Origin: Bradyrhizobium sp. AZCC 1693
Lineage (GTDB): Bacteria; Pseudomonadota; Alphaproteobacteria; Rhizobiales; Xanthobacteraceae
Length of the DNA: 64,000 nucleotides
Direction of reading: 5' to 3'
NCBI RefSeq assembly: GCF_036924745.1
Contig: NZ_JAZHSD010000001.1
Span: forward strand, 1-64,000
Both the position numbers and the translations under genes were made by a program. A model generated the notes under the pieces. That model made no database searches and had not been told where the DNA came from. It worked only from the letters and a program-made list of their open reading frames with translations. Positions 8,245-49,495 of the stretch are shown one piece after another (the first letter of the stretch is position 1; every line of letters begins with the position of its first letter).

Positions 8245-9027
8245 TCAGCGTTGCGTCAAAAAGCCGACCAGCGCATCGGTGAAGGCGTGCGGTTGCTCGA
8301 CGTTCGAAATATGAGCCGCATCGAGGATGGTCATGCTTGCGCCGGGAATCCGGCTGCGCATGAATTCGGCGTCCGCGATCGTCGTCGACATATCGTGGCG
8401 GCCGGCGATGACCAGCGTCGGGCTCTTGATCCTGGGCAGCAGTTCGCGCTGGTCGAGCGTCGACAGCGCCTCGCAGCAGGCGATGTAGCCCTCGACCGGC
8501 GTGGTCAGCATCATCGCCTTCATGTTGGCCGCGATCTGCGGCTCGCGCTCGCGAAAATCCGCCGTCAGCCAGCCCGCCATCACGGCGTCGGCGACCGCGG
8601 CGATGCCGCCTTGCTTCACCGCCTTGATGCGGTCGTTCCAGCGCGTCGGGTCCGGGTAATGGCAGGTGGTGTTGGCCAGCACGATCTTGCCGAATCTGTC
8701 TGATGCGTTGGCGCCCAGCCATTGCCCGACCATGCCGCCCATCGACAGCCCGCACCAATGGGCTTTTGCGATGTTGAGGTCGTCGAGGATCGCCAGCACG
8801 TCGCGGCCGAAACGCTCCAATGAATAGGGCCCGGGCGGCACGCTCGACTTGCCGTGACCGCGACGGTCGTAGCGGATGACGCGGAACACCTGCGTCAGCG
8901 CCTTCATCTGCGGCTCCCACATCTGCATGGTCGAGCCCAGCGAATTCGACAGCATTAGCGTCGGGCCGCCGTCGCGGCCTTCGACGGATACGTTGAGCAG
9001 GCACCCGTCGGCGTCGATCATCGGCAT
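8245..9027 (-). CDS. pcaD: 3-oxoadipate enol-lactonase
   Basis: Alpha/beta-hydrolase (260 residues) that opens beta-ketoadipate enol-lactone to beta-ketoadipate. It shows the oxyanion segment SNSLGST, the nucleophile elbow GLSMGG (Ser near residue 94), an acid region AGRHD and the catalytic His in DAAHISNVEQP. The MLSNSLG and RYDRRGHG blocks are typical of PcaD. It sits between pcaB and pcaC with gaps of 18 and 10 bases. Confidence 0.92.
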   Translation of the reverse strand: MPMIDADGCLLNVSVEGRDGGPTLMLSNSLGSTMQMWEPQMKALTQVFRVIRYDRRGHGKSSVPPGPYSLERFGRDVLAILDDLNIAKAHWCGLSMGGMVGQWLGANASDRFGKIVLANTTCHYPDPTRWNDRIKAVKQGGIAAVADAVMAGWLTADFREREPQIAANMKAMMLTTPVEGYIACCEALSTLDQRELLPRIKSPTLVIAGRHDMSTTIADAEFMRSRIPGASMTILDAAHISNVEQPHAFTDALVGFLTQR

Positions 9028-44059: not shown

Positions 44060-44207
44060 TACTCGCGGCGCGCAAAGCCATTCCTGGCATGCTCGACGTT
44101 GTGATACTTCACTGCGAACCGAACGGACCTCTGTTGCGAGCGACATGGGATCCTTCGAAGCCTTGAACGGCTTTCGGTATGAGGCGTTTGCAGTGAAGGA
44201 GGATCAA

Positions 44208-45548
44208 ATGCGATCCGATCCCTACCAGGAGCGGGCCCGGGCTTTGGCCGTTGAAGCCGGGCTTGACCCCGACGCGAAGATCGATCGGCCCGGCCAGCGG
44301 CCGATGCCGACCTGGTGCCTGTTTCGGGACGCCGCGCGCAAGGAGAAGCTCGCGCGCGACGTGGAGGCCGTGGCGGCCGATATCGCGCTCAAGCCGCAGG
44401 CGGCGCAATACCAGAACAGCCCGCTCAAGATCTTTGGCAAGCAGGATGACGCCACCATCGCGCAGATGCGCAATTGCATGTCGGTCGGCAATGTGGTCGC
44501 CGGCGTGATTTGCGCGGACGGTCATCTCGGCTATGCGCAGCCGGTCGGCGGCGTGATCGCCTATGAGAAGCAGATCAGCATCTCCGGTGTCGGCTTCGAC
44601 ATCGGCTGCGGCAACATGGCCGTGCGTCTCGACACGCCGTTCAGCCAGATCGAAGGTAACGTCGGCACGATCATCAAGGACGTGCACAACGTGATTTCGT
44701 TCGGTGTCGGGCGCACCAACGACGAGCGCGTCGAGCATGAACTGTTCGACGACGCCGATGCGTGGCGCGAGTCCGACATGGGCGGCTACCGGCAGAAGGC
44801 GATCTCGCAACTCGGCACCGTCGGATCGGGCAACCATTATGTCGATCTGTTGCGCGACGAGGAGGGCCTTGTCTGGATCGGCGTGCACTTCGGCAGCCGC
44901 GGCCTCGGACACACCAGCGCGACCCGCTACCTCAAGGCCGCGGGCGGCAAGGACGGCATGAACGTGCCGCCCGCCGTCATCGACGAGGACAGCGAGATCG
45001 GACGGCGCTACATCGCGGCGATGCAACTCGCCGGGCGTTACTCCCATGCCGGCCGCGAATGGGTGATCGAGCGCGTGCGCCGGATCATCGGTGGCGAAGT
45101 CACCGACATGGTTCACAACCACCACAATTATGCGTGGCGGGAGAACCATGGCGGCAGGGATTTGTGGGTGGTGCGCAAGGGCGCTACTCCGGCATTTCCC
45201 GGCCAGCGTGGCTTCATCGGCGGATCGATGGGCGACGACGCGGTCATCGTTGAAGGCGTCGACAGCGAGGAGGCGAAGGCTTCGCTGTACTCGACGGTGC
45301 ACGGCGCAGGCCGTCTGTTTGGCCGCAAGGAGGCCAAGCGGCGGTTCACGCGCGCCGAGATGGACGCCTGGCTGCAATCGCGTGGCGTGACGCTGGTAGG
45401 CGCCGACCTCGATGAAAGTCCGATGGCCTATCGACGGCTGCCGGAGGTGCTGACCGAGCACGCTCGCTCGATCAAGGTGCAGCATACGCTGCGTCCGTTC
45501 GCGGTCGCGATGGCCGGCGAGAACGAGTTCGATCCGTTCAAGGATTGA
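44208..45548 (+). CDS. rtcB: RtcB-family RNA ligase
   Basis: GTP-dependent ligase that joins 2',3'-cyclic phosphate (or 3'-phosphate) to 5'-OH RNA ends; in bacteria it repairs tRNA and rRNA cleaved by nucleases. In the 446 residues the metal-site motifs are GVGFDIGCGN (Asp131, Cys134), HFGSRGLGH and HNHHN (about 302-306), and the guanylated histidine is in VHGAGR (about His365). The start at 44208 has AAGGAGG five bases upstream; an upstream in-frame ATG at 44145 is less likely. The tRNA-like genes and slipin downstream suggest an RNA-repair locus. Confidence 0.92.
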   Translation: MRSDPYQERARALAVEAGLDPDAKIDRPGQRPMPTWCLFRDAARKEKLARDVEAVAADIALKPQAAQYQNSPLKIFGKQDDATIAQMRNCMSVGNVVAGVICADGHLGYAQPVGGVIAYEKQISISGVGFDIGCGNMAVRLDTPFSQIEGNVGTIIKDVHNVISFGVGRTNDERVEHELFDDADAWRESDMGGYRQKAISQLGTVGSGNHYVDLLRDEEGLVWIGVHFGSRGLGHTSATRYLKAAGGKDGMNVPPAVIDEDSEIGRRYIAAMQLAGRYSHAGREWVIERVRRIIGGEVTDMVHNHHNYAWRENHGGRDLWVVRKGATPAFPGQRGFIGGSMGDDAVIVEGVDSEEAKASLYSTVHGAGRLFGRKEAKRRFTRAEMDAWLQSRGVTLVGADLDESPMAYRRLPEVLTEHARSIKVQHTLRPFAVAMAGENEFDPFKD

Positions 45549-45568
45549 GGCCAAACTTGGCCCGATGT

Positions 45569-45601
45569 GGGACACCCGGCGAGCAATTCGCCGGGTGTCC
45601 C
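45569..45601. other. Perfect 14-bp stem-loop after rtcB
   Basis: Arms 45569-45582 and 45588-45601 pair without mismatch around a five-base loop. It begins 20 bases after the rtcB stop. There is no T run, so it may be a Rho-dependent end, an mRNA 3' stabiliser or a processing site. Confidence 0.7.
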
Positions 45602-45814
45602 TGATTGGGACTAATCCCCGGATCATTACGGGGGTAATTTCCCCAATAGTTCCATGTATTTGAACCCGCCTTACATCCGCCCGCGTTTAAGCCGGATTTA
45701 ACTAAAAGTCGCCTTAATGACGCTCTGTGCCTCTGCGAGATGCTGTCGGGGACCTATCCGGACGCGGCATCAAACGGGGGACTTGGTGGAATTGTTGTTC
45801 TGGGCGTTGTGTGA

Positions 45815-46990
45815 ATGAGTAAGCGTATGCGTGCGTTCGGCCCTGCGGTGCACAACCGCAGGAAACCTTCCCGTAAAGGCATTCCCCAACATTTCCTCGG
45901 CGGTGTCGCGGTCGCGGGGCTCGTGCTGGGCTGCGCCTGGACCGTTTACACCAACGTGCTTGGCGCCAACGTCTATCCATCCGTGAACAGCGCCGCCTTT
46001 GAGGCGCCTGTCGTCAAGAACCCGACCGTGGTCGCTGCCCGCACGGTGCGGCCGGCCTTCAACGAAATATTCGCGTCGCTGCCGCAACAGTCCCTGGTGA
46101 TCCCTGCGCCGGAGAACGTCGCGAGCTCGCTGATGTTCAACGAACGGTTTGCCGCGGCGGCGCCGCAAGGCGAGCCGTCCAGATCTCTTGAGCCCCAACC
46201 GGTCGAAGCGACGAAGCTGGCGGAAGCTTCGCCGCCGGCGGAAGCGCCGAAGGCCATTCAGGCGTCGAAGCCTGCTGAGACGCCGAAGCCGAAAGTTTCC
46301 ACGCCGGCTACCAAGCTCGCCTTGAACGTTCCGGCCGCGGCGCCGAAGGAGACCGAAGCCAAGGCTGCGGAGGACAAGACCGCGAAGGCATCCTCCGGCT
46401 CCACCGTTCGCGACATGGCGCAGCGCGCCAAAGCCGCCGTGATGTCGATTGCTTCCAACGAGAAGCAGTCGATGGTTGAAAAGCTATGGGGCAAGCAGCC
46501 TGCGCAGAACGCGCTGCTCGCTTTCGCATCCGCCGACGCCAGCGTCACCGGCAGCATCATCGACACGCGAAGCCAGAACCCGATGATGGGCGGCGCGCCG
46601 CCCTATGACCGCCAGACCGCGGTCTACGATATCGCCGCCAAGATGGTGTATCTGCCCGACGGCACCAGGCTGGAGGCGCATTCGGGCCTCGGCTCGAGGA
46701 TGGACGATCCCAAATCTTCGCATGTGCGGATGCAGGGCGTGACGCCGCCGCACATCTACGAACTGAAGCCGCGTGAAGCGCTGTTTCACGGTGTGCCGGC
46801 GCTGCGGCTGACGCCAATCGGCGGCGAGGAAAAAATCTACGGTCGCGACGGCCTGCTCGCGCACACCTACATGCTCGGGCCGAGCGGCCAGTCCAACGGC
46901 TGCGTCTCGTTCAAGGACTACTACGCGTTCCTCGATGCCTACAAGAACAAGGGCATCCGTCGTCTCGCGGTGCTGGCGAAGGTCCAGTAG
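45815..46990 (+). CDS. DUF2778 (Tlde1-like, L,D-transpeptidase-related) envelope protein
   Basis: A 391-residue protein. A basic N-terminus and one membrane helix (residues 27-50) precede a long Pro/Ala/Glu/Lys-rich linker (about 110-210). The DUF2778 domain spans residues 265-391 with the catalytic-type His and Cys in HTYMLGPSGQSNGCVSF. DUF2778 relatives act on peptidoglycan peptide stems. Neighbours are rtcB and the tRNA-like genes; a functional link is not evident. The ribosome site is weak and the start could be ATG 45827. Confidence 0.82.
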   Translation: MSKRMRAFGPAVHNRRKPSRKGIPQHFLGGVAVAGLVLGCAWTVYTNVLGANVYPSVNSAAFEAPVVKNPTVVAARTVRPAFNEIFASLPQQSLVIPAPENVASSLMFNERFAAAAPQGEPSRSLEPQPVEATKLAEASPPAEAPKAIQASKPAETPKPKVSTPATKLALNVPAAAPKETEAKAAEDKTAKASSGSTVRDMAQRAKAAVMSIASNEKQSMVEKLWGKQPAQNALLAFASADASVTGSIIDTRSQNPMMGGAPPYDRQTAVYDIAAKMVYLPDGTRLEAHSGLGSRMDDPKSSHVRMQGVTPPHIYELKPREALFHGVPALRLTPIGGEEKIYGRDGLLAHTYMLGPSGQSNGCVSFKDYYAFLDAYKNKGIRRLAVLAKVQ

Positions 46991-47366
46991 GCGCCGCCGC
47001 CTCAATTCAGATTCGAATTTCAAACGGCCTACCGAGGTCGTCGTCCGGCTTGATCGGACGATCCGGGACGCCGTCCCACGTCATTGCCAGGAGCGCTTGC
47101 GACGAAGCAATCCATTCCTCTGCAAGCGGCGAAATGGATTGCTTCGCTTCGCTCGCAATGACGGTGGAAGGTTCTGGGCTGCTCCCTGCGCTGTGGTCGC
47201 CGCGCTACAGCCCACGCTCGTCGGCAAAAATTTTCGCACGCAGGCTTGCAACTGAAAGATGTTTCGTCTATTGACCCGCTCCTTCGCTTTGGCCATGGGT
47301 TCGGGCTCGTTGTGATCCCGACTGGCGCGGGCCGGTTTCCGGTTTCGTGTTCCGCCAGGTGAAGAC
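46991..47366 (+). other. Region upstream of the tRNA-like pair
   Basis: About 375 bases holding the GTCATTGCGAG-family repeat (47080-47162) and then 200 bases that must include the promoter of the tRNA-like genes. Only a poor TTGACC (47273) -17- CATGGG pair is seen. A GG-N10-GC core at 47176-47189 is too weak to call a sigma-54 site. Confidence 0.4.
47080..47162. repeat. Palindromic intergenic repeat, GTCATTGCGAG family (copy 2)
   Basis: Ends GTCATTGCCAGGAG and CTCGCAATGAC; inner dyad GAAGCAATCCATT / AATGGATTGCTTC. A shorter relative of 27732-27877. Confidence 0.85.
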
Positions 47367-47437
47367 GCGACAGTGGCTCAGCGGTAGAGCGTCGGGATGA
47401 TACCCGAAGGTCGCCGGTTCGATTCCGGTCTGTAGCA
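47367..47437 (+). ncRNA. tRNA-like RNA 1 with six-base anticodon loop
   Basis: Cloverleaf can be drawn: acceptor 47367-47373 with 47430-47436 (six of seven pairs, one G:A), D arm GCTC-AGCGGTA-GAGC, anticodon stem TCGGG/CCCGA with a six-base loop ATGATA (47397-47402), variable AGGTC, and T arm GCCGG-TTCGATT-CCGGT. A normal loop has seven bases, so this is not an ordinary tRNA; the loop looks like tRNA-Ile(GAT) lacking one base. No CCA is encoded. It lies in tandem with a second copy before the slipin gene. Confidence 0.75.
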
Positions 47438-47441
47438 CAAA

Positions 47442-47513
47442 CGAAGGATAGCTCAGTGGTAGAGCAGATGACTACGAATCATCGTGACGCGGGTTCGAAT
47501 CCCGTTCCAACGC
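47442..47513 (+). ncRNA. tRNA-like RNA 2, Arg(ACG)-type anticodon, defective acceptor stem
   Basis: D arm GCTC-AGTGGTA-GAGC, perfect anticodon stem GATGA/TCATC with a standard loop CTACGAA (anticodon ACG at 47474-47476), variable GTGAC and T arm GCGGG-TTCGAAT-CCCGT. The acceptor arms 47442-47448 and 47506-47512 pair at only five of seven positions with two adjacent A:A mismatches, and no CCA follows. It starts four bases after tRNA-like 1, so the two are probably co-transcribed. Annotation programs may call it a pseudo-tRNA or tRNA-Arg. Confidence 0.75.
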
Positions 47514-47851
47514 TCCGGTTCAGCCTGAAAAGCTGATTCCCATTGAAGGGGACCGGACGCGCGCTTCAGTCGCAGTCCGGCCGTGTTGCCGAAAGGCTTT
47601 TCGTCCGAACCTAGACACTGTGAGACCGGCTTTGCGCCGCGGTGGATACCGCTTGCGTTGATGCCGGGTGGCAACGCTCGACCGCTCGACACATGTCGGG
47701 CGATCGCGCGCGTGCGCCCGCTATCTGCGCAAGCTCAAACCCGGCCCGCCGAGCTTTCAGGAAGTGTCGTCCGCGTCCCCACGTCCTTTGCAAAAACGAG
47801 ACCCGCTTTCCGACCCGGCGAGGGCCGGAGGGCAAACCATGGAGGCGTGCC
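47514..47851 (+). other. Structured leader between tRNA-like genes and slipin
   Basis: About 340 bases without a supported gene. Short stem-loops are visible: CAGC/GCTG at 47521-47535, CCGGAC/GTCCGG at 47553-47580, and CGAAA/TTTCG near 47592-47605 with a T run. No strong terminator separates the tRNA-like genes from slipin, so one transcript may cover both. Confidence 0.45.
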
Positions 47852-49003
47852 ATGACCTGGCATTTGCTGATGAAGACGCTGACGGTGAAGGATGGCGAGC
47901 GCGCGTTGCTGACGCGTAACGGCAGGCTCGAGCGCGTGCTCGAACCCGGTCGTCACCGGCTGCTCGATCTGCGGCGTCAGTTGACGGCGGAGATCTTCAA
48001 CGTCGTTCGCGCCGAATTCCCCGCGGAGCGTTACGCGGTGCTGAAGGCCGCGCGGCCCGATCTTGCTGCAGAGCTGTTCGAGGCTGTCGAGACGAAGGCG
48101 AACGAGATCGCCATCGTCAGCCTTGACGGCCGTCCCGTGCACCTGATGACGCCCTGGCAGGCGCGCGTCTACTGGAACGTCGCGACCTCAGTCGATGTCG
48201 AGCGCATCGATGTAGCCAGCGATCCCCGTGTGACCGCACGTCACCTCGCGATGATCGAGCGCAACCGTCCTACCATCGTGACGGAAGCGGTGGTCGAGAA
48301 CCACGAAGCCGGTCTGCTCTACGTCGAGGGCCGGCTGGTGGAGCGGCTTGCGCCCGGCCGGCACGCCTTCTGGATCGCCGGCCGCAAGATCGAGGTGAAG
48401 CGCCTCGATCTGCGTCCCCAGGCGGTCGAGATCACCGCGCAGGAAATGCTGACCAGAGATCGCATCGCGCTGCGTGTGACCCTGACGGCATTCCGCCGGA
48501 TCGTCGACCCCGAGCGCGTGGTCGCGGCCGTGCCCGACGTGGATGCGTGGCTGTACCGGCTGGTGCAGTTCGCGATCCGCGAGGCGGTGGCCGGTCGTAC
48601 GCTCGACGAGGTGCTGTCGGCGAAGGCGTCGCTCGACGCGGAGCTGCGCGACTACGTGCGCGAGCGTATCGCCGATAGCGGTGTCGAGGTCTCCGAACTC
48701 GGCGTGAAGGACGTGATCCTGCCCGGCGAGATCCGCGAGCTCGTCAACAAGGTGGTGGAGGCGGAGCGGGTCGCGAAGGCGAACCTGATCCGCCGGCAGG
48801 AATCGACCGCGGCGACGCGCTCGCTCCTGAACACCGCCAGGCTGATGGAGGAGAACCCTCTGCTGCTGCGGCTCAAGGAGCTGGAGTCGCTGGAGCGGCT
48901 GGTGGAGAAGGTCGGCCGGATCGACCTTCATGCGGGTGACGGGCAGGGCCTCGACGCCCTGCTCACCAAGCTGGTCCGCCTCAAGCCTGCGGAGAACGCG
49001 TGA
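47852..49003 (+). CDS. Slipin (SPFH/band-7) family protein
   Basis: A 383-residue stomatin/prohibitin-like protein. The N-terminal 160 residues hold a duplicated motif (ERALLTRNGRLERVLEPGRH at about 16-35 and EAGLLYVEGRLVERLAPGRH at about 150-169). The SPFH domain follows (ITAQEMLTRDRIALRVTLTAF, WLYRLVQFAIREAV, GVEVSELGVKDVILPGEIRELV), then a coiled C-terminal helix with EAERVAKANLIRRQE. There is no strong membrane helix. In other bacteria such slipins accompany RtcB RNA-repair genes. GGAGG lies six bases before the start; a good terminator follows. Confidence 0.88.
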   Translation: MTWHLLMKTLTVKDGERALLTRNGRLERVLEPGRHRLLDLRRQLTAEIFNVVRAEFPAERYAVLKAARPDLAAELFEAVETKANEIAIVSLDGRPVHLMTPWQARVYWNVATSVDVERIDVASDPRVTARHLAMIERNRPTIVTEAVVENHEAGLLYVEGRLVERLAPGRHAFWIAGRKIEVKRLDLRPQAVEITAQEMLTRDRIALRVTLTAFRRIVDPERVVAAVPDVDAWLYRLVQFAIREAVAGRTLDEVLSAKASLDAELRDYVRERIADSGVEVSELGVKDVILPGEIRELVNKVVEAERVAKANLIRRQESTAATRSLLNTARLMEENPLLLRLKELESLERLVEKVGRIDLHAGDGQGLDALLTKLVRLKPAENA

Positions 49004-49008
49004 CAGGA

Positions 49009-49040
49009 AGGGTCGCCCACGGGCGGCCCTTCACTTTTTT
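49009..49040 (+). terminator. Rho-independent terminator of slipin
   Basis: Ten-bp stem (49009-49018 with 49021-49030, one T:G pair) and a six-T run at 49035-49040. It closes the tRNA-like/slipin unit. Confidence 0.9.
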
Positions 49041-49078: not shown

Positions 49079-49310
49079 ATGTCCCAGCCCGATTTTCAGC
49101 CGACGCTTGTCGGCCCACCGTCACCGTCAGGCCAATTTCCAGGGACGACTGGACCGACATGTTTGCAGCCGGCTCCGACCCGGAGATCTGGTAAGTGCAT
49201 CCGGTGCCGGATCGCTACACCGAAGCGGGGTTTCAGAAATTCCTTGATGGCGCAGTCGATTCCAGGATGGGGTTTGCATTCGTCGACCGAACGACTGGAC
49301 GCATCAGCGC
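49079..49310 (+). pseudogene. Decayed GNAT acetyltransferase fragment
   Basis: Translations in two frames give a GNAT N-terminal half: MSQPDFQPTLVG at 49079, then after a one-base loss near 49112 TVTVRPISRDDWTDMFAAGS, DPEIW, an in-frame TAA at 49192-49194, then [20 protein letters not shown] and [13 protein letters not shown]. The acetyl-CoA binding half is missing. It is joined to an inverted groEL fragment. Confidence 0.75.
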
Positions 49311-49365
49311 GTGTTCTCCGCCCAAGCAGGAGGGGCACGGCGTGCGCCACGCCCTTCCGCATGAG

Positions 49366-49495
49366 CCGTCTTCACCAGCATTGACCGCGATCTGGCGGGC
49401 CGGCGCGGAGAGTGCGTTGCGCACCATCTCAGCGTGTGTCTTCTGATCATGACGGCGCCGCTCGTTGCGGAGAGGCTGCGCCCGTAGTTTGCGAG
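49366..49495 (-). pseudogene. groEL fragment, inverted
   Basis: On the minus strand the DNA encodes [20 protein letters not shown] and AVNAGEDGS, matching the groEL at 52198 ([29 protein letters not shown]). Similarity ends abruptly after GEDGS and fades before DQKT. It covers about 40 codons of the C-terminal third of GroEL and is not expressed as a protein. Confidence 0.82.

Follow-up and report, generated by a model that had tools for sequence, protein, structure and literature searches.

Does the gene cluster around an RNA ligase gene in Bradyrhizobium sp. AZCC 1693 represent an RNA-repair operon, and which of its parts belong together? The question is raised by positions 44208-49003 of the stretch analyzed here (the first 64,000 nucleotides of contig NZ_JAZHSD010000001.1, hereafter the window), where the plus strand carries, in this order, the ligase gene rtcB, a gene with a Tlde1 domain, two tRNA-like domains (TL1 and TL2), and the gene of a slipin, a protein with an SPFH (Band_7) domain. 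An earlier note on this DNA had proposed a candidate RNA-repair locus, possibly a Bradyrhizobium variant, in which the tRNA-like RNAs could be decoys, sensors, or substrates of RtcB and slipin a membrane scaffold. As judged from the genomes compared below, the conserved unit is the tRNA-like leader together with slipin, not rtcB. The module is otherwise found in RNA-repair operons that appear to be regulated by RtcR, and the window would hold an orphan, RtcR-less member of it. The reading favored here, to which we assign a probability of roughly 55%, is that of an orphan module of an SPFH protein and a tRNA-like RNA, the latter acting as a bait or sensor held by a soluble SPFH oligomer.

Co-occurrence of the tRNA-like leader and slipin

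Within the genus, a full-length slipin ortholog was found in 36 of 117 genomes, and a long match to the leader (47290-47700) was obtained in 36 of 117 as well, the two sets being identical. In the examined loci of G003, G010, and G080, where slipin is reduced to remnants, no tRNA was called. Across the class, 385 genomes were searched and full-length slipin was obtained in 6, the window's own genome among them (a further match, in G135, is partial), and a profile search of the phylum found it in 23 of 398 genomes, 21 of them outside the genus. At 20 of these 21 phylum-sample loci, a relaxed pattern recognized a tRNA-like domain no more than 900 nt upstream of slipin, and ARAGORN called one at 16; the exception to the relaxed pattern, L246, is located at a contig end and has no upstream sequence.

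A set of 96 leaders was compiled from 79 unique loci (101 candidates minus 2 incomplete and 20 duplicate ones) and 17 distant loci. At least one tRNA-like domain was recognized by a strict pattern in 95 of them, and none at L177. As background, 3718 pieces of 900 nt, real tRNAs included, were taken from the same loci; the strict pattern hit 10 of these controls and the relaxed pattern 13. The 64 close Bradyrhizobium loci (slipin >85.5% identical) carry two TLs in 62 cases and one in 2; among the other 32 (four more distant Bradyrhizobium loci are counted here), two TLs were recognized in 15, one in 16, and none in 1. Outside the 96, T-arm-like elements only were seen by eye at L163, L164, and L166, ARAGORN called one TL at L167, and at L178 it made one tRNA-Leu-like call ~530 nt upstream of slipin (same locus, L172). 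With ARAGORN alone, at least one TL was called in 26 of 30 genus loci, and a call within 900 nt upstream of slipin was obtained in 20 of 26 less related loci, around whose slipin the genes vary by lineage. Of 142 relatives obtained in a scan, the best 80 were retained; they comprise Bradyrhizobium, Rhodoplanes, Dongia, Methylopila, Steroidobacter, and Acidobacteria metagenome-assembled genomes (MAGs), among others. The module is thus also present in other Pseudomonadota and in Acidobacteria MAGs and is not restricted to Bradyrhizobium, which weakens the suggestion of a Bradyrhizobium variant.

Structure of the leader RNA

TL1 and TL2 both score above the Rfam tRNA gathering score of 29 (Table 1); they lie on the same strand as rtcB, as described before, and are separated by 3 nt rather than by four bases. 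Besides these two tRNA matches no known RNA reached gathering in the window, and weak matches to the leader stayed below it. Column identity over 47255-47850 is mostly 78-98% in 30 genus loci, with one 20-nt block at 70%, and amounts to 54-71% just upstream of the leader in the same loci. RNAalifold predicted 96 pairs from 25 leaders, and one or more double compensatory changes were seen in 30 of these pairs; covarying long-range helices downstream of TL2 are among the predicted structures (for example, ~47554-47559 with 47769-47774).

The minimum-energy fold of TL2 is cloverleaf-shaped, with an acceptor of 3 bp. Pairing was counted in 46 TLs from outside the close Bradyrhizobium group; it reaches 99.6% in the anticodon stem (53% when shuffled) and 99.1% in the T stem (81%), but only 68% in the acceptor stem (43%). 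The TL scan demands at least 3/5 anticodon-stem and at least 4/5 T-stem pairs, and the figures for these two stems are therefore partly a product of construction; this does not apply to the variety of pair types. Four Watson-Crick types occur at 4/5 pairs of the anticodon stem. Within the TLs, the D and T arms rank among the best-conserved parts. By comparison, TL1 and TL2 keep D, anticodon, and T arms with reduced acceptor stems, and in the genus sample they are inherited strictly with slipin. With the pattern present in 95 of 96 leaders, their description as conserved RNAs that are tRNA-like rather than ordinary tRNAs holds.

A motif at the 5' end of the leader was found in 69 of 96 leaders, nearly all from close relatives (0.1% in shuffled sequences), and is missing in 27, including most distant ones. 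By eye, a motif at 47320-47360 (GGYRCR ... CGYRTNCC) seems common to Bradyrhizobium, Burkholderia, Escherichia coli, Photobacterium, and Subdoligranulum (L162-L166); the strict pattern of the 5' motif missed Photobacterium. Such a shared motif could found an RNA family. Of the 64 close Bradyrhizobium leaders, 61 contain a promoter-like block, TTGC[AC]A-N16-18-TA[TC][TG]; its counterpart in the window (47246-47274) was not called by a generic promoter scan.

These features would suit a cis-regulatory leader whose TLs gauge the state of the tRNA pool or of enzymes that bind tRNA and act as a switch on RNA decay or on the translation of slipin, in which case the slipin protein need not bind RNA. 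The RNA sits directly upstream of slipin with no terminator-like site between TL2 and slipin by scan, its fold is better than 100 shuffles (z -2.73), and it contains the long-range helices mentioned above. However, the distance between TL and slipin varies from ~195 to 750 nt across loci, T-arm-only forms exist, and a regulator of one gene leaves the triplet turnover described in the following section unexplained. This explanation is therefore possible, though on the unlikely side.

The hypervariable anticodon of TL2

The rate test was based on 52 of the 64 close Bradyrhizobium loci, namely those with a TL2 loop of 7 nt; loci with loops of 8 nt (5) or 6 nt (4) were excluded, as were 3 unmatched ones. 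The 52 loops contain 15 different triplets. On the slipin tree, positions 32-38 of the loop changed 14, 4, 19, 10, 15, 1, and 13 times, respectively, while 128 four-fold degenerate slipin sites of the same taxa changed 4.3 times on average. The anticodon triplet consequently changes 3.4 times as often as these sites, and U33 and A37 are held while positions 32, 34-36, and 38 change. The probability that three random four-fold sites reach the triplet total is 1.1e-4 on the slipin tree, 1.2e-4 on the joined tree, and 1.3e-3 on the leader tree. Likewise, the loop differs in 17 of 24 independent close leader pairs (at most 8% apart outside the loops) and in 20 of 27 leader pairs at most 5% apart. 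What we consider new about this locus is that, by these counts, the anticodon triplet of TL2 outpaces four-fold sites in its turnover, with U33 and A37 retained.

The excess of triplet changes may reflect selection or a fast neutral loop, as four-fold sites are an imperfect neutral standard. The latter would be expected if protein binding or modification required no more of the RNA than the tRNA elbow (D and T arms), leaving the loop to drift. The strong conservation of the D and T arms, the TL1 loops of 4-8 nt, and the nonsignificant mimicry of real tRNA loops (see below) are in line with drift, whereas the retention of positions 33 and 37 amid changing neighbors, a rate above that of four-fold sites, and an anticodon stem kept by covariation are not. 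An unconstrained loop is, in our estimation, a doubtful explanation that deserves to be kept in mind.

rtcB and its loose link to slipin

The motifs GSGNH, HFGSRG, HNHHNY, and HGAGR, which have a catalytic role in RtcB, are all readable in the rtcB translation, in line with the intact catalytic residues that had been noted. An alternative upstream ATG exists at 44145, and the window gene is the only RtcB match in its own genome. It ends 2.3 kb upstream of slipin, on the same strand and with one gene between. A perfect 14-bp hairpin follows rtcB (45569-45601); it lacks a T-run and was not called by the terminator scan, but on account of it rtcB probably has its own transcript.

rtcB of the window type is present in 48 of 117 genus genomes, a count from which short or distant matches among the 56 found are excluded and to which three genes with frames that look broken (G044, G097, and G113) contribute. 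In G113 (L036), an initial stretch of 95 residues is encoded in a different frame; in G097 the gene is in two pieces with a stop, and in G044 it contains two stops. The gene occurs in 23 of 36 slipin genomes and in 25 of 81 others (Fisher P 0.001, phylogeny-uncorrected). Where both are present, rtcB lies within 7 kb of slipin in 11 of 23 genomes; in 4 the two share a contig but are 0.7 Mb or more apart, and in 8 they are on different contigs. As the two genes are unlinked in 12 of 23 genomes and rtcB is missing from 13 of 36 slipin genomes, rtcB as a fixed or stable partner of slipin in the genus was rejected. Of the two observations named in advance as fatal to the proposed locus, unlinked rtcB in relatives was thus largely encountered, and a lack of conservation of the TLs was not.

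A second gene of the RtcB family (RtcB2, ~30% identical) lies at most ~5 kb downstream of slipin in L033, L034, L035, L045, and L051, and likewise downstream of slipin in L128, L129, L131, L084, and L143. A gene for a 2OG-Fe(II) oxygenase stands between slipin and RtcB2 in L045, L128, and L129. Four tested copies of RtcB2 reached 24-30 bits with NCBIfam TIGR03073, whose cut-off is 272.

RNA-repair context in the genome and in other bacteria

Whole-genome searches for RtcR, TROVE, RtcA, and RlaP gave 0 matches each, every search being positive in at least one control genome, which agrees with the earlier impression that RtcR, RtcA, and TROVE genes are not visible. Neither was a sigma-54-like site found in the window's leader, and its pattern occurs in 1 of 64 close Bradyrhizobium leaders. 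The RtcR and the sigma-54 promoter that define an RtcR-regulated RtcB operon, and the Ro60/TROVE protein that defines an rsr-Y RNA system, are accordingly missing here.

The relatives of the locus tell more. At the 21 phylum-sample loci, with ~6 kb of flanks examined (less at L246), tblastn found RtcB in 14, RtcR in 8, and RlaP in 5. RtcB is located beside slipin in 14 of 14 loci outside Alphaproteobacteria, in many cases together with RtcR or RlaP. Pfam confirms these RNA-repair families at loci of Burkholderia, Photobacterium, Citrobacter, and Subdoligranulum. The Burkholderia locus (L162) reads RtcR (divergent), a sigma-54-like site, leader, slipin, RtcB, and RlaP; that of Photobacterium (L165) has RtcR, a pair of tRNA-like domains, slipin, and RtcB in succession; and at the Citrobacter locus (L163) RtcR faces the leader, followed by slipin and RlaP. 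No RtcB was found in the examined flanks of the Steroidobacter (L154, L155) and Acidobacteria loci. Since distant relatives adjoin RtcB, RtcR, and RlaP, the assignment to RNA-repair loci is borne out, and the window locus can be regarded as an orphan relative of an RNA-repair operon.

An operon centered on RtcB, with the tRNA-like RNAs as its substrates and slipin as a membrane anchor, could draw on the proximity of RtcB (at most 7 kb away in 11 of 36 genus slipin genomes and at most ~6 kb away in 14 of the 21 loci of the phylum sample); it is very unlikely in view of the unlinked and rtcB-free genomes, the hairpin after rtcB, and the slipin protein, which has no membrane segment. Real, perhaps stress-specific tRNAs or decaying tRNA genes are the least credible explanation, because strong tRNA model scores, a CCA encoded in some relatives, ordinary-looking tRNAs at two distant loci, and host-used anticodons in 42 of 52 TL2 loops are outweighed by acceptor stems that fall short of the full 7 bp of a functional tRNA (68% paired, 3 bp in TL2), an anticodon that is not conserved, TL1 loops that are often not 7 nt, and a conservation across phyla that speaks against decay. 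TL2 as a functional tRNA-Arg was rejected for its reduced acceptor and changing anticodon; a canonical tRNA-Arg(ACG) exists elsewhere (L196).

Several loci showed additional RNA genes or nucleases. Besides RtcB, eight (L249) and three (L258) ordinary-looking tRNAs and an HNH gene stand beside the slipin module. In a Chromatiales MAG (L157, 3034-8661), an HNH nuclease, a protein without Pfam match, a protein with an RF-1 domain, a tRNA-like domain, slipin, and RtcB form a row that is interrupted by one small open reading frame (ORF). At L128, an odd tRNA-Asp-like sequence with CCA (8397-8471) overlaps the ORF of an HNH gene upstream of the slipin leader.

The slipin protein

The predicted architecture of slipin comprises three tandem beta modules, an SPFH domain, and a long helix (model pLDDT, a confidence score, 82) with internal repeats. 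Hydropathy revealed no membrane segment (maximum over 19 residues 1.06), and an N-terminal membrane hairpin, the mark of a slipin/stomatin membrane scaffold, is therefore absent; the role of membrane scaffold that had been suggested is unsupported. An alignment of 21 rows contains relatives that match over the full length, N-terminal modules included, and that come from loci with RtcR, RtcB, or RlaP; Band_7 was found in 21 of 21. Both marks of a module of SPFH protein and tRNA-like RNA, an SPFH protein of this subfamily and a TL directly upstream, are thus present in the window. Compared with stomatin, HflK, and QmcA (PDB 9z7u, 7vhq, 8z5g), the window slipin has two extra N-terminal beta modules and lacks a membrane segment by hydropathy. 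Alignment of the whole model to the major vault protein (PDB 9mxv) spans 8-333, the N-terminal modules alone aligning weakly, and no sequence match between the two proteins was found. Foldseek returned no match with E below 0.001 for the N-terminal part by itself, and tblastn of slipin gave no match in phage records.

Comparison with known systems

A 2016 study by Burroughs and Aravind (Nucleic Acids Res) reportedly described, for RNA-repair systems, the association of an SPFH/Band-7 protein and a novel tRNA-like RNA. The window locus shares the SPFH/slipin protein with an upstream tRNA-like RNA, and its distant relatives adjoin RtcR, RtcB, and RlaP. In contrast to the system so described, the window locus has no RtcR, RlaP, or sigma-54 site, its rtcB is loosely linked, and it has two TL copies with a hypervariable anticodon. 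The literature searched contained no paper joining slipin and tRNA-like RNA (the 2016 SPFH study lay outside it) and none on slipin, rtcB, and tRNA-like RNA, on SPFH, tRNA-like RNA, and RNA repair, or on Bradyrhizobium and slipin. To our knowledge, the role of tRNA-like RNAs beside SPFH proteins in RNA-repair systems is unsettled.

In the Salmonella rsr-yrlBA-rtcBA operon with Y RNAs, the tRNA-like domain of YrlA might, as has been suggested, competitively inhibit an anticodon nuclease (PMC7790460). Both systems combine RtcB with an RNA that has a tRNA-like domain, whereas the window genome has no Rsr/TROVE, RtcA, or RtcR, and the protein partner is an SPFH protein. In Anabaena, rtcB, a slipin, and HNH genes are listed together as repressed by TrcR, and a tRNA operon of 26 tRNA genes is co-regulated with them (PMC10272220). 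The tRNAs and HNH gene of L249 and L258 are reminiscent of that trn operon as it is presented there. The window locus has rtcB and a slipin in common with that regulon, the Anabaena slipin possibly belonging to another subfamily, and the Anabaena genes are situated at separate loci under a repressor, unlike those of the window.

Layout of the locus

The features of the locus are collected in Table 1. The terminator-like stem with T-run behind slipin corresponds to the strong terminator that had been noticed. The gene lying between rtcB and slipin, then called DUF2778, was indeed found there and now belongs to PF10908 (Tlde1 domain, Pfam). Together with groEL it neighbors slipin in most examined Bradyrhizobium loci, with or without rtcB, and looks like an unrelated syntenic neighbor. 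A short ORF behind slipin (49195-49446) clusters with GNAT acetyltransferase genes of L032 and L034 and is likely a remnant of such a gene.

Table 1. Features of the rtcB-slipin region, in window coordinates
Feature	Position	Strand	Support or remark
rtcB, RNA ligase	44208..45548	+	PF01139 at 215 bits
14-bp perfect hairpin, candidate 3' end of separate rtcB transcript	45569..45601	+	-32.0 kcal/mol, z -6.4
Candidate sigma-70-type promoter TTGCAA-N17-TATTGA	47246..47274	+	kept in close Bradyrhizobium leaders
5' domain of leader RNA, conserved	47290..47366	+	79-95% column identity, 30 genus loci
TL1, tRNA-like domain	47367..47438	+	Rfam tRNA 56.7 bits
TL1 anticodon-like loop, 6 nt	47397-47402	+	loop 4-8 nt in relatives
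TL2, tRNA-like domain, 3-bp acceptor remnant	47442..47513	+	Rfam tRNA 57.7 bits
TL2 loop CTACGAA	47472-47478	+	hypervariable triplet = 47474-47476
Hairpin and large structured leader domain	47514..47790	+	RNAalifold, covariation
slipin	47852..49003	+	Band_7 at 108.8 bits
Terminator-like stem with T-run, 3' of slipin	49007..49032	+	-23.1 kcal/mol, z -5.3

Proposed function

For the orphan module of SPFH protein and tRNA-like RNA, the following course of events can be proposed. One sigma-70-type promoter would give rise to a transcript consisting of the 5' domain, TL1, TL2, the structured domain, and the slipin message. The TL RNA would serve as bait or sensor for anticodon-loop nucleases, held by a soluble SPFH oligomer, as suggested by structures of the family, and slipin and the tRNA mimics would form a ribonucleoprotein particle (RNP) that meets such nucleases. 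If the TL RNA has this role, the specificity letters of TL2 would be expected to turn over as local nucleases change. RtcB, where the cell has one, could reseal cut TL copies.

A number of observations weigh against this proposal. TL2 loops were compared with the flanks of real tRNAs that share their anticodon (46 host tRNA loci, 45 of them parsed), and the agreement was no better than chance (P 0.15). Among 20 distinct loops whose anticodon also occurs in the host's tRNAs, 5 gave a 7/7 match (permutation P = 0.17), and the fraction of TL2 loops carrying an anticodon used by the genome's own tRNAs is not significant either (P = 0.11). As the match of loop and flanks does not go beyond chance, strict mimicry of a given tRNA is not supported, and mimicry of the host's own anticodon loops is not claimed. 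In a GC-rich genome the four-fold sites are themselves under constraint, so that an unconstrained loop could account for part of the excess. Single-sequence folds of TL1 (z -0.7) and TL2 (z -0.2) are no better than shuffles, and the support for their structure therefore comes from covariation. Both the promoter and the single transcript are themselves predictions. Finally, besides the 13 slipin genomes of the genus without rtcB of the window type, RtcB was found in none of the seven alphaproteobacterial loci of other genera within the examined flanks, so that repair by a linked RtcB is not required.

A more far-reaching version would be a chromosomal immune-like decoy, in which tandem tRNA mimics, their anticodons under diversifying selection against anticodon nucleases, sit on a soluble vault-like SPFH cage; its orphan form would work without RtcR and often without a linked RtcB. 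This version is put forward tentatively and is rather improbable as a whole.

Under the proposal of a bait or sensor module, the fast triplet in an otherwise frozen tRNA fold leads to the prediction that the anticodon letters decide what the RNA meets. The strict coupling of leader and slipin without RtcR would, moreover, offer a minimal system for a search for the RNP, as no RtcR regulon is involved.

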